From positions 5,820,001-5,884,000 of the forward strand of contig NZ_JAUALB010000001.1 of assembly GCF_030345795.1 (NCBI RefSeq): a stretch of DNA of 64,000 nucleotides. Reading direction: 5' to 3'. Below are positions 6,034-12,424 of the stretch, piece by piece; the stretch's first letter is position 1; each line of letters begins with the position of its first letter. This DNA comes from Micromonospora sp. WMMA1363 (lineage in GTDB: Bacteria; Actinomycetota; Actinomycetes; Mycobacteriales; Micromonosporaceae). Both the position numbers and the translations under genes were made by a program. Under the pieces are notes generated by a model. It was not told the origin of the DNA. It ran no database searches and saw only the letters and a list, made by a program, of their open reading frames with translations.

Positions 6034-7104
6034 TCAGCCGACGGCGCGCAGGTACGGGGCGGGCCAGGACGACGCGGCGCCGAGCTTCGCGGCGGCGCGG
6101 TGCGGCCAGTACGGGTCGCGGAGCAGCTCCCGGCCGAGCAGCACCAGGTCGGCCTCGCCGGAGGCCACGATCTGCTCGGCCTGCTCCGGCTCGACGATCA
6201 CGCCAACCGCGCCGGTGGCGATCCCGGCGTCCCGGCGGATCCGGGCGGCCAGCGGCACCTGGTAGCCCGGCCCGACGGGGATGCTCGCGTCCGGCGATGC
6301 CCCGCCGGAGGAACAGTCGACCAGGTCCACGCCCGCGTGGGCCAGCTCACCGGCGAGCGCCACGCTGTCCTCGACGGTCCAGCCGCCGGGCACCCAGTCG
6401 GTGGCCGAGATCCGGGCCAGCACCGGCACGTCCTCCCCGACGGTGGCGCGGACCGCCCGGGCCACCGCGAGAGTGAGGCGCATCCGCCCGGCACGGTCAC
6501 CGCCCCACCGGTCGGTGCGGTGGTTGGTCAGCGGGGACAGGAACTCGTGCAGCAGGTAACCGTGCGCGGCGTGGATCTCCACCGCCTCGAAGCCGGCAGC
6601 GACAGCCCGGCCGGCCGCCGCCGCGAACGCCTCGACCACCCCGGCGAGGCCGGTCTCGTCCAGCGCCGTCGGGCGGCGGTAGCCGGCGACGAACGGTTCG
6701 TCGCCCGGGCCGACCGGGGACCAGCCGCCCTCGGTGTCCGGCACCCCGCCCCGCTGCGGCGACCACGGCCGGTGCGTCGAGGCCTTGAAGCCGGCGTGCG
6801 CCAGCTGCACCGCCGGGAGCGCGCCCTGCGCGGCGACGAACGCGGTCACCGGCCGCCACGCGTCGACGTGGGCGTCGGACCACAGCCCGGTGTCCTGGGG
6901 GCTGATCCGTCCCTCGGGTACCACGGCGGTCGCCTCGGTCAGGACCAGGCCGGCGCCGCCGACCGCCCGGGTGCCCAGGTGCACGAGGTGCCAGTCGGTG
7001 GGCAGGCCGTCCGGGCCGGCCGAGTACTGGCACATCGGTGCGACGGCGACCCGGTTGGGCAGCGTCACCGCGCGCAGGGTGAGGGGGCTGAACAGGGCGG
7101 TCAT
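6034..7104 (-). CDS. Old yellow enzyme family NADH:flavin oxidoreductase
   Basis: The 356-residue protein is an FMN-dependent TIM-barrel ene-reductase of the old yellow enzyme (YqjM-like) class. It begins LFSPLTLRAVTLPNRVAVAP and carries MCQYSA, whose cysteine tunes the flavin in this subclass, then HAAHGYLLHEFLSPL and NHRTDRWGG. Such enzymes reduce activated C=C bonds of enones or quinone-like compounds; the true substrate is unknown. ATG at 7104 is chosen because GAGAGGACG lies just upstream; an upstream in-frame start at 7134 would add ten residues without homology. It lies 59 nt after the symporter gene on the same strand and may share its transcript. Confidence 0.92.
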   Translation of the reverse strand: MTALFSPLTLRAVTLPNRVAVAPMCQYSAGPDGLPTDWHLVHLGTRAVGGAGLVLTEATAVVPEGRISPQDTGLWSDAHVDAWRPVTAFVAAQGALPAVQLAHAGFKASTHRPWSPQRGGVPDTEGGWSPVGPGDEPFVAGYRRPTALDETGLAGVVEAFAAAAGRAVAAGFEAVEIHAAHGYLLHEFLSPLTNHRTDRWGGDRAGRMRLTLAVARAVRATVGEDVPVLARISATDWVPGGWTVEDSVALAGELAHAGVDLVDCSSGGASPDASIPVGPGYQVPLAARIRRDAGIATGAVGVIVEPEQAEQIVASGEADLVLLGRELLRDPYWPHRAAAKLGAASSWPAPYLRAVG

Positions 7105-7163
7105 CGCATCGTCCTCTCGGTCGCGCGACGGCACCGCGGGGTGCCTTCGCGGGGTGGGGTTCG

Positions 7164-8456
7164 TCAGGCTGGGATGGGAACCGGCTCGCCGTCCCGGGTC
7201 GGCTGCGGCTCCCGCTCGACCGGGTCCCGGCGACCCGCGGAGTCGTACGAGGCGCGGTCGAGGGTGCCCTCACGGGCGGCCACGATCGTCGGTACGAGCG
7301 CCTGACCGGCCACGTTGGTGGCGGTCCGGATCATGTCCAGGATCGGGTCGACGGCCAGGAGCAGTCCCGCGCCGGCCAGCGGCAGGCCGAGCGTGCTCAG
7401 GGTGAGGGTCAGCATGACGACCGCCCCGGTCAGCCCGGCGGTCGCCGCCGAGCCCACCACGGACACGAAGGCGATCAGCAGGTAGTCGGTGACACCCAGC
7501 TCGACGCCGAAGACCTGCGCCACGAAGATCGCGGCCAGGGCCGGGTAGATCGCCGCGCACCCGTCCATCTTCGTGGTGGCGCCGAACGGCACCGCGAAGG
7601 ACGCGTACTCGCGGGGGACACCGAGGCGCTCGACCGAGCGTTGGGTCACCGGCATGGTGCCGACCGAGGAGCGGGAGACGAACGCCAGCTCGATGGCCGG
7701 CCACACGCCGGCGAAGAAGCGCAGCGGGTTGAGTCGTCCGGCGGTCACCAGCAGCAGCGGGTAGACCACGAACAGCACGATCGCGCAGCCGACGTACACC
7801 GCGGTGGTGAAGCGGGCGAGTGGGGCCAGCAGGTTCCAGCCGTACGACGCGACGGCGTTGCCGATCAGACCCAGGGTGCCGATCGGGGCGAGCCGGATCA
7901 CCCACCAGAGCGCCTTCTGGACGATCTCCAGCAGCGCGCGGTTGAGGTCGACGAACGGCTCGGCGGCCTTGCCGACCAACAGTGCGGCGGCCCCGACGAC
8001 CAGGGCGAGGAAGACGATCTGGAGAACGTTGCCGTCCACGAAGGCGCCGACCGGGTTGGTCGGCACGATGCCGGTGAGGAAGTCGGTCCAGGAACCGGTC
8101 CGGGTGGGGGCGGTGGCGGCGGCGGTGTCCAGTGTGACCCCACGACCGGGGTCGGTGAGCAGGCCGAGGCCGAGGCCGACACCGACCGCGATCAACGCGG
8201 TCGCGCCGAACCAGAGCAGCGTCTTGAGCGCCAACCGGGCCGCGTTGGTCACGCCGCGCAGGCTGACCACGCTGACCACGATGGCGGTGAAGACCAGCGG
8301 CGGTACGGCCAGTTTGAGTAGCTGGACGAAGAGGCCACCGACGGTGTCGAGGGTGCTGGTCAGCCAGGACAGGTCGTACGCGCGGGCGACGAAGCCGAGC
8401 GCCACGCCGAGTACGAGGCCGAGCAGGATCTGCAGGGAAAAGGGGATCTTGCGCAT
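7164..8456 (-). CDS. Dicarboxylate/amino acid:cation symporter (DAACS family)
   Basis: The 430-residue membrane protein belongs to the sodium or proton coupled DAACS family (GltP, DctA, TcyP). It has about eight membrane segments, the re-entrant loop serine stretch SRSSVGTMPVTQ, and FGATTKMDGCAAIYP in the place of the family motif NMDGT, here with Lys for Asn. Substrates in the family are dicarboxylates, glutamate/aspartate or cystine, and the sequence alone does not decide. A small peptide gene with a late Cys codon ends 40 nt upstream (8497-8586), which hints at control by cysteine supply and so at a cystine-type substrate; that is inference. The 19 or so C-terminal residues are polar and charged. 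Confidence 0.92.
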   Translation of the reverse strand: MRKIPFSLQILLGLVLGVALGFVARAYDLSWLTSTLDTVGGLFVQLLKLAVPPLVFTAIVVSVVSLRGVTNAARLALKTLLWFGATALIAVGVGLGLGLLTDPGRGVTLDTAAATAPTRTGSWTDFLTGIVPTNPVGAFVDGNVLQIVFLALVVGAAALLVGKAAEPFVDLNRALLEIVQKALWWVIRLAPIGTLGLIGNAVASYGWNLLAPLARFTTAVYVGCAIVLFVVYPLLLVTAGRLNPLRFFAGVWPAIELAFVSRSSVGTMPVTQRSVERLGVPREYASFAVPFGATTKMDGCAAIYPALAAIFVAQVFGVELGVTDYLLIAFVSVVGSAATAGLTGAVVMLTLTLSTLGLPLAGAGLLLAVDPILDMIRTATNVAGQALVPTIVAAREGTLDRASYDSAGRRDPVEREPQPTRDGEPVPIPA

Positions 8457-8496
8457 GGCGGGTCCAGGTCTGGAACGGGGTTGGTCAGGGGCGCTG

Positions 8497-8586
8497 TCAG
8501 GGCACGAGTCGCGCCGGACAGGTACCGCTGGCCTGCCGCCGCAGGTCGACGTACAGCCGCACCGTGAGATTCCAGACGTTGGTCAT
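8497..8586 (-). CDS. Putative 29-residue leader peptide of the symporter gene
   Basis: ATG at 8586 opens a 29-residue frame ending in TGA at 8497-8499. Its second half reads RLYVDLRRQASGTCPAR. This resembles the small actinobacterial 'putative leader peptides' (pattern R-x-VDL-R-x-x-S-x-x-C) found in front of sulphur and transport genes. The frame is preceded by TAGGCT and 8 nt, and no Shine-Dalgarno sequence, so it would be translated from a leaderless message. It ends 40 nt before the symporter start, an arrangement fit for attenuation by slow translation at the Cys codon. The family match is from memory of the pattern and cannot be searched here. Confidence 0.65.
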   Translation of the reverse strand: MTNVWNLTVRLYVDLRRQASGTCPARLVP

Positions 8587-8594
8587 CGCCGGTG

Positions 8595-8600
8595 AGCCTA
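8595..8600 (-). promoter_or_regulatory. -10 box (TAGGCT) for leader peptide and symporter
   Basis: On the minus strand TAGGCT is followed by 8 nt and then the ATG of the leader peptide gene at 8586. The same hexamer at the same distance precedes several other starts in this window. Transcription would begin at or very near the A of the start codon. No clear -35 box was seen. Confidence 0.6.
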
Positions 8601-8911
8601 CGGCGACCCCCACCGGGCGAGAAGGACCGATGGCGGTGACGCTCCTTACAGCTGGCGCCCGGAGGGCCGGGTGGAGTCGTGCTCACCGACGACCGACGGG
8701 GAGAGGGACGGCGGCCACCCGGCAGCGCGGCGCCGCGCCGGGAGCGGGGCGCGGAGCACCAGCCCCCGGGCGTCGCCGAGGTGCGCGGAGCGCCCCCGTC
8801 GACACCACGGGTGACCGGACGGCGACCCATCGCCGGGTAAATGCGTTGAGTGGCCGGGCCGGGTCGGTGAGTCTGACCGCATCGCCGTCGCCTGCCGTGA
8901 GGGGTTCCGCC
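8601..8911. other. Intergenic stretch between divergent transporter genes
   Basis: About 310 bp separate the leader-peptide promoter (leftward) from the ABC exporter start (rightward). An open frame runs through it into the exporter from 8564, but its translation is Arg/Ala/Gly/Pro-rich without family features. I read it as untranslated leader and promoter region. GAGGGG at 8899-8904 is the likely ribosome binding site of the exporter. Confidence 0.5.
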
Positions 8912-11900
8912 GTGCGTCTGCTCCGCGACCTGTTCGCCACCGCGCCCCGCCGCATGGCGATCGCGACCGTGCTGGTCGTGCTCGGCGCCGGTGGTCAGAC
9001 GGCCGCCGCGGCGCTGGCCGGGCCGGTCCTGCTGCACCGGTCCACCGGATACTTCACCGTCCTGGCCGCCGCGCTCGTCGCCGCCGTGGTCAGCGACCTC
9101 GTGGTCGGCCTGGTGCTGGCGGGCGTGACCGCGGACTGGTCGGCCGCCGTGCGGCGCCGGCTCTGCCGGGTCGCGTTCGGGCAGGACCTGCCCGCCCTGG
9201 AGAGCACACCGGTCGGCGAGCTGCTCGACCGCATCGACGGTGACGTCTACCAGGTCGCCGCCGCGGTACGGGGGCAGGGCGCCCGCATCGCGCAGCTACT
9301 CGCGGTCGGCTTGCTTTCCACGGTGGTGGCAGTCGGCGTCTGGTGGCCGGCCGGCGTCACCATGGTGCTGCTCGCCGGCGGGCTCGTCATCGGCCTGCGC
9401 CGGCCCACCGCGCGGATCGTCCCGGCGCGAATGGCGGAGGAGGAGGCCTGGTCCGACCTGGCGGCGGTGATGGAGGAGGCCATCCACGGCCAGGACGACG
9501 TCCGCACCAGCCTGGCCCAGCCGTACGTGCTGCGGCTCTACGCGAACCGCGCGGCGGCCGTTCTCTCCCGCGGCCTGCGGGTGTGGCGGATGTCCGCCAA
9601 GGTCACCACCGTGGCGGCGGCTGTGACCAGGGCCGGGATCGCCGCGGTGGTCCTCGCCGGGACGTGGGCGCTGGCCACCGGCCGGATCGACGGCGCCCGG
9701 CTGACCGCCGTATGGCTGCTCGCCATCGCCTTCGGCGCCACGGTGGAGCACGTCAGCCGGATGCTGCCCGAGTTGCAGTACGCGCTCGGGGCCTGGGGCC
9801 GGGTGCGGCTGCTCGAGGACTCCGCACAGGAGCCCACCGGCGGGCTGCCTCCGCTCGACGGTGACCTGACGGTGCGGGGGCTCACCTTCCGCTACCCGGC
9901 GGCTGACGGCACCCGTGGGCCCGCTCTGCACGACGTCGACCTGACCTTCACCCGGGGGCGCTCGTACGCCCTGGTCGGCCGGACCGGCTCCGGCAAGTCC
10001 ACCCTGGCCAAGGTGCTGACCCGGGCGGTCGAGGTGCCGCCCGGCACGGTCTTCTTCGGCGGCCGGGACGTGCGTGACCTCGACCTCGAGCAACTGCGTC
10101 GGTGGGTTGCGGTGGTGCCGCAACGCACCGAGATCCTGGCCGGAACGCTCGCCGAGAACGTCGCGCTCTTCGATCCGGATCTGCTCGACGGCGCCGCCCG
10201 CGCGTTGCACGAGTTGGGCCTCGCCGGCTGGATCGCCGAGCTGCCGGACGGTCTGCGGACCCGGCTCGGCGAGGGCGGACACGTCCTGTCGGCCGGGCAG
10301 GAGCAGCTGGTCGCGTTCGCTCGGATCCTGGTGCGGGACCCGCACGTGGTGATCCTGGACGAGGCCACCGCCCGACTCGACCCGGTCACCGAGGCGCGGG
10401 TGCAGCGTGCCACCGAGCGGCTGCTGGCCGACCGGATCGGCATCGTCATCGCCCACCGGCTGTCTTCCGTGCGGCACTGCGACGAAGTGGTGGTGCTGGC
10501 CGACGGTGCGGTGGCCGAGGCGGGGCCGTTGCGGGAGTCGGCGCGCTTCGCCGAGCTGCTCGCCACCAGCCACACCGGCGCGTACGCCCGGACCGGCGCG
10601 GGTGGCGGCGGGGTCGATCTGCTGGAGGGCCCGGAGCCGGAGCTTGCGCCGCCGCCCGACCCGGTTCCGGCCGGGGCGCCGCCCGACCCGGTTCCGGCGT
10701 CGCCGGTGGCCGTCGCGTCGCAGGACCGGACGCCACCACCGGCGGCGCCGCTCGCGACGACTCTCCGGGAGATCGCCCGGCTGCTGACCAACGATCCACG
10801 GTACGGGCTGGCGGCGTTGGCGCTGTTCATGCTGACGGTGCTGGTCGGCCTGGACGGCCCCGTCCTACCGTGGCTCTGGGCGGACGTGGTCGACGGGGTC
10901 GGCGACCCGTGGCTGCCGGCGCTGGGCATCGCCGCCGGGCTGCTGGTCACCCTGCCGGTGCCCTGGTACACCAGCATCTGGTTCGCGCAGTGGTGGGTAC
11001 GGCAGATGCTGCGGATCAGCCTGCGCCTGGTGGCGGGACAGACCGGGCCCCGGCGGGTGAGCGCGCACAGCCCCGCCGAGGTGGTGGCCCAGGGCGGCGA
11101 CACCGAACGGGTGGTGGAGCTGGCCGACAACCTGCTGGACCAGTCGGCGGCGGTCGTCCTGCTGGTGGCGATGACCGTGATCTCCGGCAGTGTGGTACCC
11201 GGGCTCTTCCTCGCCGGGACGATGCTGGTGTCCGGGCTGGTGGCATCGCTGTTCGGAGCACGGCTGGCGGGCACCGCGCGGGCGACGGTGGCGGCCCGGG
11301 CCGTGTTCGCGACCTCGCTGGTCTCCGCGCTGGCCGCCGCCCGCACGGTGAAACTGGCCGGCGCGACCCGGCCGGTGCTCGCTCACCTCGCCAGCCTGGA
11401 CGTGACGCGGAGCGAGCGCCAACGGCGGGAGATCTCGTTGCATGTGTGGTCGCGGTCGACGCCGGCGCTGGTCAGCGGGCTGTTGCCGATCGGCGCCTGG
11501 GCGCTGTTCCTCAACGGTCGGCTCTCGGCGGGGGCGACCCTGGTCGCCGTGTCCACGCTCGCCGCGGCGCGCTGGTTCGCGTGGACCACCGCGTCGCTGG
11601 TCTCCCAGGTGCCGTCGGCGCGGGTGTGGACCCACCGGACGGTGGCGATGACCGGGGTGGCCGCGTACTCGACCGCCGTGCCGGACGTGGACCTGGCCAC
11701 CGGGCGGGCACCGGCGCCGGCCGCGCCGTCCCGGCACCCGCTGCGCCGGTTGGAGCTGACCGGCTTCGGCGTCCGGCACGCCGACGGCGAGCCGGCCGTC
11801 CGGGACGTCGACCTGACCGTGGAGCGCGGTCAGCTGGTGCTGGTGGTAGGGCCAGTCGGCTCGGGGAAGTCGTCGCTGCTGCGTGCCCTGGCCGGAATCG

Positions 11901-12424
11901 CACCGCACACCGGGCGGCTGACCTGGAACGGCGAGCCGGTGACCGAGCCAGAACTGTTCCTGCGTCCGCACCAGGTGGGCTACGTCGGCCAACTGCCCCG
12001 GGTGCTGTCCGGGACGATCACCGACAACATCACCCTCGGCCACCCGGTGGACGCCGCGGCGGCCGTGTCGACCGCGCAGCTCGACCACGACCTGGCGGCG
12101 TCCGGGGCCGGTCTCGGGCTGGTCATCGGGCACCGGGGCACCCGGCTCTCGGGCGGGCAGCTGCAGCGTCTCGCGCTGGCCCGCGCGCTCGCGCCGCGTA
12201 CCGAGCTGCTGGTCGCCGACGACGTTTCGTCCGCGCTGGACGTCACGACGGAACTGGCGCTCTGGGCGGCGCTGCGCGCGCACGGCGTGACGGTGGTGGG
12301 CGCGACGTCGAAGCGGGCGGCGCTGGTGCGCGCCGATCACGTCGTCGTGCTCGACAACGGTCGGGTCGCCGCCCAGGGCGCCTGGCGTGACCTGGAACCA
12401 GCCTGGTCGCACCTGGCCGGCTGA
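8912..12424 (+). CDS. Fused ABC exporter (membrane-ATPase-membrane-ATPase)
   Basis: The 1170-residue protein carries two complete half-transporters in one chain. The first membrane domain (about residues 15-280) is followed by an ATPase with Walker A GRTGSGKST, the signature LSAGQ and Walker B VVILDEATARLD. A Pro/Ala-rich linker comes next (PPPDPVPAGAPPDPVPASP). The second membrane domain (about 620-900) is followed by an ATPase with GPVGSGKSS, LSGGQLQR and LLVADDVSSALD. In the second site aspartate replaces the catalytic glutamate and the first has a changed signature, so the two ATP sites are unequal, as in many heterodimeric exporters. GTG at 8912 was preferred for its Shine-Dalgarno sequence. 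The substrate is unknown; drugs, lipids or peptides are usual for the family. Confidence 0.9.
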   Translation: MRLLRDLFATAPRRMAIATVLVVLGAGGQTAAAALAGPVLLHRSTGYFTVLAAALVAAVVSDLVVGLVLAGVTADWSAAVRRRLCRVAFGQDLPALESTPVGELLDRIDGDVYQVAAAVRGQGARIAQLLAVGLLSTVVAVGVWWPAGVTMVLLAGGLVIGLRRPTARIVPARMAEEEAWSDLAAVMEEAIHGQDDVRTSLAQPYVLRLYANRAAAVLSRGLRVWRMSAKVTTVAAAVTRAGIAAVVLAGTWALATGRIDGARLTAVWLLAIAFGATVEHVSRMLPELQYALGAWGRVRLLEDSAQEPTGGLPPLDGDLTVRGLTFRYPAADGTRGPALHDVDLTFTRGRSYALVGRTGSGKSTLAKVLTRAVEVPPGTVFFGGRDVRDLDLEQLRRWVAVVPQRTEILAGTLAENVALFDPDLLDGAARALHELGLAGWIAELPDGLRTRLGEGGHVLSAGQEQLVAFARILVRDPHVVILDEATARLDPVTEARVQRATERLLADRIGIVIAHRLSSVRHCDEVVVLADGAVAEAGPLRESARFAELLATSHTGAYARTGAGGGGVDLLEGPEPELAPPPDPVPAGAPPDPVPASPVAVASQDRTPPPAAPLATTLREIARLLTNDPRYGLAALALFMLTVLVGLDGPVLPWLWADVVDGVGDPWLPALGIAAGLLVTLPVPWYTSIWFAQWWVRQMLRISLRLVAGQTGPRRVSAHSPAEVVAQGGDTERVVELADNLLDQSAAVVLLVAMTVISGSVVPGLFLAGTMLVSGLVASLFGARLAGTARATVAARAVFATSLVSALAAARTVKLAGATRPVLAHLASLDVTRSERQRREISLHVWSRSTPALVSGLLPIGAWALFLNGRLSAGATLVAVSTLAAARWFAWTTASLVSQVPSARVWTHRTVAMTGVAAYSTAVPDVDLATGRAPAPAAPSRHPLRRLELTGFGVRHADGEPAVRDVDLTVERGQLVLVVGPVGSGKSSLLRALAGIAPHTGRLTWNGEPVTEPELFLRPHQVGYVGQLPRVLSGTITDNITLGHPVDAAAAVSTAQLDHDLAASGAGLGLVIGHRGTRLSGGQLQRLALARALAPRTELLVADDVSSALDVTTELALWAALRAHGVTVVGATSKRAALVRADHVVVLDNGRVAAQGAWRDLEPAWSHLAG

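Follow-up and report, generated by a model that had tools for sequence, protein, structure and literature searches.

Leaderless short open reading frames (ORFs) containing Cys codons are reported to act as attenuators in Mycobacterium smegmatis (Canestrari et al. 2020). Leader peptides with runs of Cys codons were described in 2005 before the cys operons of Mycobacterium and P. acnes and before cbs of B. longum, and Rho was proposed to act at the Mycobacterium leaders (PMC1262725). In Rhodobacterales, the upstream ORF uORFC-8-2 precedes cysS and carries conserved Cys codons, for which ribosome-mediated attenuation was proposed (PMC8632094).

A related arrangement is found in a 64,000-nucleotide stretch of Micromonospora sp. 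WMMA1363 DNA (the window), where a 29-codon ORF with a late Cys codon precedes a DAACS symporter gene. We consider it likely that this ORF is a cysteine-responsive leader of the NF042934/Ms5788A/Ms4527A family. It would control a DAACS symporter of cystine type and probably, within this lineage, the old-yellow-enzyme gene that follows. The features of the locus, all on the minus strand, are as follows.

8621..8650, minus strand: conserved box TGTAAGGAGCGTCAC-N9-TCCTTC, upstream of the promoter
8595..8600, minus strand: -10-like hexamer TAGGCT in the sequence, 8 nt before the leader ATG
8497..8586, minus strand: leader peptide ORF, 29 codons plus stop (ATG 8586-8584, TGA 8499-8497)
8569..8582, minus strand: 5' arm of helix P1, leader codons 2-6, duplex with 8464-8476
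8518..8520, minus strand: codon 23, TGT (Cys), proposed regulatory codon, nine codons after Asp14
8464..8476, minus strand: 3' arm of helix P1, GTTCCAGACCTGG, overlapping the symporter's ribosome-binding site, duplex with 8569-8582
8462..8466, minus strand: Shine–Dalgarno (SD)-like TGGAC, 5 nt before the symporter ATG
7164..8456, minus strand: DAACS/SDF symporter, 430 amino acids, with the TcyP-like motif GCAAIYPA (PF00375, E 3.2e-105)
6034..7134, minus strand: old yellow enzyme family protein (PF00724), the next gene after the symporter and likely on the same transcript

The leader ORF translates to MTNVWNLTVRLYVDLRRQASGTCPARLVP (29 amino acids), with R10, D14 and C23 as its motif residues; C23 is its single Cys codon, and a run of Cys codons is absent. 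The leader stop is separated by 40 nt from the symporter ATG at 8456 on the same strand. The layout given in the preliminary description, comprising TAGGCT, the 8-nt spacing, the ATG at 8586, the 40-nt gap and the symporter start, is present in the sequence as reported, but the minus-strand orientation of all these elements went unmentioned there. The frame does run into CPAR as had been described, but CPAR is followed by three residues (LVP) instead of the four claimed. On the plus strand, a long divergent ORF (8564-12424) encoding an ABC-type protein overlaps the first codons of the leader as listed; its true start is probably further in. An Rfam search of the window gave a single match, the Actino-pnp RNA (RF01688, 42714-42786, plus strand, 52.4 bits, above the gathering score), and none at the leader.

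Among genomes sampled at three ranks, the symporter is present in 46 of 150 for the family, 122 of 151 for the genus and 76 of 296 for the class. From these, 200 distinct loci were assembled, comprising all 46 of the family, 95 of the 122 of the genus (13 shared with the family set) and 75 of the 76 of the class (three shared). In 188 of the 200 loci, a short ORF encoding R-x{1,2}-[VLIM]-D-x{2,10}-C lies no more than 480 nt ahead of the symporter; the identical test returned 1/200 in antisense, 1/225 in downstream windows and 24/1000 in shuffled sequence. The symporters of the 12 leader-less loci are 59–65% identical to that of the window in ten cases and 68–69% in two; one of these loci (L156) offered only 355 bases upstream. 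Conservation of the peptide in relatives, which the preliminary description had put forward as the check on its proposal, therefore holds. The RLYVDLR type of leader, to which 105 loci belong, is confined to the window's own family (104 loci) and one locus of another family (L158). Further types include LTRRRHLDFCRVSTVLC and its relatives, RLHVDLCR and, in other families, MxNIWGLTxR.HVD.

The actinomycete peptide family invoked in the preliminary description exists as the NCBIfam model NF042934 (cis_reg_atten, 'putative leader peptide'). The window's peptide scores 22.7 bits against this model (E 5.4e-5), below the cut-off of 27 bits, which is exceeded by two of ten typed relatives before the same symporter (30.9 and 29.6 bits). 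The leader shares with NF042934 members a short ORF closely upstream on the same strand, with Arg(-4), Asp(0) and Cys(+9) spelled TGT. Relatives of the window's peptide also give weak matches, none above cut-off, to the Cys-rich leader models Ms5788A and Ms4527A, which we take to be linked to the work of Canestrari et al. 2020. The family has thus been described before; the copy in the window has one Cys and scores below the threshold. In profile searches NF042934 matched in 89 of 118 genomes of the class and in 12 of 198 genomes of a phylum-wide draw, all 12 from the window's own class. Many of these leaders stand before genes other than the symporter, presumably including rhodanese-like, CysK-like and sulfite/nitrite-reductase-like genes, named by eye from next ORFs that were not always in the right frame. 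The window's own genome contains a second family leader, MGTFLTKRRAVDLCRVATCLCRPVI (L001, C1:3478571-3478624, minus strand), with TGT at Asp+9; the gene about 200 nt downstream of it is, by eye, presumably rhodanese-like.

The position of the Cys and its codon are both conserved. The motif Cys stands at Asp+9 and is spelled TGT in all 164 distinct symporter leaders, whose other Cys codons are TGC 91 times and TGT 16 times; the positional conservation is as the preliminary description would have it. Among NF042934-profile leaders, the Asp+9 codon is TGT in 70 of 70 (69 distinct stretches). This set joins 30 automatically fetched loci to 40 more from the list; the profile is blind to codons, and the reading required Cys at +9 with its codon left free. 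Three stretches lie off the expected place, all in loci truncated by the end of a contig. In the 40 later loci, Cys at other positions is TGC 35 times and TGT 8 times. The Ms4527A profile matched in 37 of 61 genomes of the order, and among the 30 loci fetched Asp+9 is TGT in 26, with a mixed spelling elsewhere (TGC 10, TGT 9, mainly from poly-Cys leaders). The remaining four have TGC, which rules out UGU as an absolute rule. These four leaders (L328, L329, L330 and L333) come from four genomes, all of GTDB family f3, and are a natural experiment on the codon rule. TGT leaders occur in that family too (L316 and the symporter leader L157). Cys is spelled TGC 820 times and TGT 112 times (12% TGT) in long ORFs of the fetched loci, and 139 and 17 times, respectively, in genes of the window, both backgrounds being filtered for G or C at third positions, which lowers TGT somewhat. 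Inside 100 symporter genes the counts are TGC 174 and TGT 1. As the loci are related, none of these codon counts represents independent events.

Thus conservation applies to the amino acids, as in a protein, and at a single position to the codon as well. UGU as a piece of a longer fixed word is ruled out, as the neighbouring codons vary. Because UGU persists amid very different flanking RNA, we infer a role in decoding and not in base pairing, which suggests that the codon itself forms part of the cysteine sensor. More tentatively, the sensor may be codon-specific: the R-x-x-V-D-x-x-R chain would sensitise the ribosome such that one rare UGU, read by G-U wobble and placed exactly at Asp+9, would suffice for sensing Cys-tRNA, with this fixed spacing and codon recurring across the class, in front of cystine-type symporters as well as sulphur genes.

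Conservation extends to the ORF and its motif, to the place of the Cys and to its synonymous spelling as UGU. The reading given in the preliminary description is well supported as a whole; we infer that the peptide senses the supply of Cys-tRNA, and the switching step would run as follows. Ribosomes would start at or next to the mRNA 5' end. When Cys-tRNA is scarce, a ribosome would pause with UGU (codon 23) in its A site, aided by UGU being decoded slowly through wobble and perhaps also by the conserved R-x-x-V-D stretch of the nascent chain inside the exit tunnel. This pause, which may come with a queue of ribosomes reaching to the start of the leader, would block codons 2–6 from pairing with the symporter's ribosome-binding site and thereby raise transporter synthesis. 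When cysteine suffices, the ribosome would run off and helix P1 would hide that site.

In RLYVDLR-type loci, codons 2–6 are complementary to CCAGAC...UUGGA at the symporter's ribosome-binding site, forming P1. The duplex occurs at the same place in 24 of 24 loci (L011-L034), and 17 of them reach p<0.05 relative to shuffled intergenic sequence. Combining the loci gives p 2.5e-14, which is too strong a figure because they are related. Over the 105 loci, with 28 distinct arms, own arms pair better than permuted ones (-16.04 versus -15.02 kcal/mol, s.d. 0.30, p 0.0005), but the mean of swapped arms is beaten in only 50 of the 105, and CCAGA[CU] is missing in 33. Nucleotide 9 pairs with its partner above chance (19 versus 9.8, p 0.0005, in the 96 of 105 loci with an anchor), nucleotides 16 to 18 fall below significance, and nucleotides 11, 12 and 14 are invariant; the shuffle, permutation and covariation tests all ignore phylogeny. 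P1 is ruled out as a general output device by a mean z of -0.17 to 0.16 in four other leader groups, compared with -1.85 in 60 RLYVDLR-type loci, so in those groups the regulatory output may differ. A hairpin inside the leader, P2, also appears in folds; both of its arms are coding, and it is not claimed as an element.

Ribosome footprints were masked in partition-function folds of the 105 loci. Simple masking, in which a stall at the Cys codon opens the binding site, is not supported: access changed by +0.003 on average, rising in 5 of the 105 loci and falling in 5. A ribosome masked at the leader start raised access by 0.044 on average, and a full queue by 0.066 (51 of 105 up, 10 down), but in the window's own sequence the queue left the SD less open (0.40 to 0.28). 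As mask folding does not bear out the simplest model, a queue of ribosomes stacked from codon 23 to the start is offered only as a suggestion.

The lack of a clear opening of the binding site, together with the missing P1 in other leader groups and the Rho proposed for Mycobacterium cys leaders (PMC1262725), would be expected if the same Cys-sensing leader had a transcriptional output, with the stalled ribosome preventing Rho-dependent or weak intrinsic termination in the leader region and P1 being incidental. We regard this as rather unlikely, given that a search of 8380-8720 for an intrinsic terminator between leader and symporter found no terminator-like site, that the gap between the two is just 40 nt, and that P1 has a conserved noncoding arm whose pairing with its own leader is stronger than with permuted leaders.

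Cysteine-responsive decoding may also be set against an arrest peptide, in which the nascent chain itself, within the ribosome tunnel, detects a small molecule such as cysteine or cystine and the Cys codon merely marks the stop position. In classical attenuators the regulatory codons alone matter. Here Arg(-4), Asp(0) and Arg(+3) are constant as amino acids yet variably spelled, with five codons for Arg(-4) and two for Asp in the NF042934 set, as an arrest peptide would have it. But the rare UGU at +9 is kept although UGC gives the same peptide, which points to decoding and makes an arrest peptide quite improbable. A conserved structured RNA with an incidental, untranslated ORF fits part of the nucleotide conservation in RLYVDLR-type leaders, where it coincides with helices, and is hardly credible, since across groups the amino acids stay while codons and P1 change, and the leader has no Rfam match. 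The amino-acid conservation over many families would suit a self-acting product, such as a transporter subunit or a modified peptide, but such a role is most improbable for a peptide with a conserved synonymous codon and a motif that precedes unrelated genes.

Upstream of the leader, a TANNNT hexamer lies 5–10 nt before the ATG in 104 of 105 RLYVDLR-type loci, compared with 2 of 2100 random positions. This conserved -10-like box would fit a leaderless start. Against such a start, the anti-SD energy before the leader ATG (-3.74) does not fall short of that at the symporter (-3.08), so the leader may have a ribosome-binding site of its own. Upstream of this promoter, a GTAAGG-N4-TCAC box followed by a TCCTT-like half is present in 95 of the 105 RLYVDLR-type loci (23 of 24 in L011-L034), compared with 2 of 83 other leaders, and the longer pattern has a single exact site in its own genome, at the window locus. 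The box at 8621..8650 is possibly the site of a transcription factor. No regulator gene consistently adjoins it among the upstream ORFs of 12 loci inspected by eye. Inspection by eye shows that LTRRRH-type loci share another box, GTATGCGATC-nCTCAC, in a comparable position.

Compared with proteins from the annotated E. coli genome, the symporter shows 31.6% identity to TcyP, 30.0% to GltP, 26.0% to SstT and 24.8% to DctA. It shares with TcyP the motif G-C-A-x-[LIV]-Y-P-A with a one-residue insertion, which GltP, DctA and SstT are without; the G-C-A-x-[LIV]-Y-P motif with its insertion is present in 11 of 11 symporter relatives tested. As it was derived here from one TcyP, the motif is a lead and not an established signature. 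No leader is known to precede E. coli TcyP. A small tree gives the symporter no firm placement, and its identity to TcyP is hardly above that to GltP. Its best solved relatives are aspartate transporters, and its named close relatives, among the best 120 listed, are mostly Micromonospora proteins. TcyP (YdjN) of E. coli imports cystine (PMC4383340); the window's symporter resembles it in family (SDF) and in the motif, and differs in sharing only 31.6% identity. Taken together with the leader, this makes cystine or a closely related compound the likeliest substrate. The motif adds some weight to the cystine uptake predicted in the preliminary description.

The gene after the symporter encodes an old yellow enzyme in 47 of 51 RLYVDLR-type loci with long flanks and in none of 49 others. 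Its suspected sharing of the leader's control is thus plausible within the RLYVDLR-type lineage but not beyond it. The pairing of a cystine-type transporter with an old yellow enzyme is lineage-specific.

Through the leader, a transporter that is widespread in actinomycetes and whose specificity is open becomes linked to the supply of cysteine, which amounts to a prediction of its substrate. Should the UGU rule prove functional, replacing UGU by the synonymous UGC ought to blunt regulation, which would test directly whether attenuators respond to the identity of a codon as well as to its amino acid. The rule would likewise account for the working of leaders that have only one Cys codon. It further provides a simple mark for finding additional members of the family. 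The leader family is already known; the UGU rule, the association with a TcyP-like symporter and P1 are new relative to the literature searched. The near-invariant UGU at a fixed distance from a conserved Asp is the point deserving attention. A literature search covering titles, abstract openings and passages found no fixed UGU codon in this leader family, no leader before this symporter and no P1-type pairing; Canestrari et al. 2020 may contain such observations.

Like NF042934 leaders, the window's leader is a short ORF that precedes a gene and carries the motif R-x-x-V-D-L-x-R-x-x-S-x-x-C; it differs in scoring below the cut-off (22.7 versus 27 bits), in its single Cys and in preceding a DAACS symporter. 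It is like uORFC-8-2 in being an upstream ORF with conserved Cys codons and proposed ribosome-mediated attenuation, whereas uORFC-8-2 has tandem Cys codons with UGC dominant and an intrinsic terminator (PMC8632094). The leaders of the 2005 description similarly have Cys codons near the end of the leader ORF and no terminator found, but they have runs of Cys codons and precede biosynthetic operons (PMC1262725). With the polycysteine leaderless short ORFs of M. smegmatis reported by Canestrari et al. 2020, the window's leader shares a leaderless-type arrangement, a late Cys codon, a downstream gene of the cysteine economy and a proposed unmasking of the downstream ribosome-binding site. The M. 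smegmatis ORFs have a Cys run where the window's leader has one Cys codon, and in the window's lineage the proposed masking partner is, in contrast to those ORFs, formed by the leader's own first codons.
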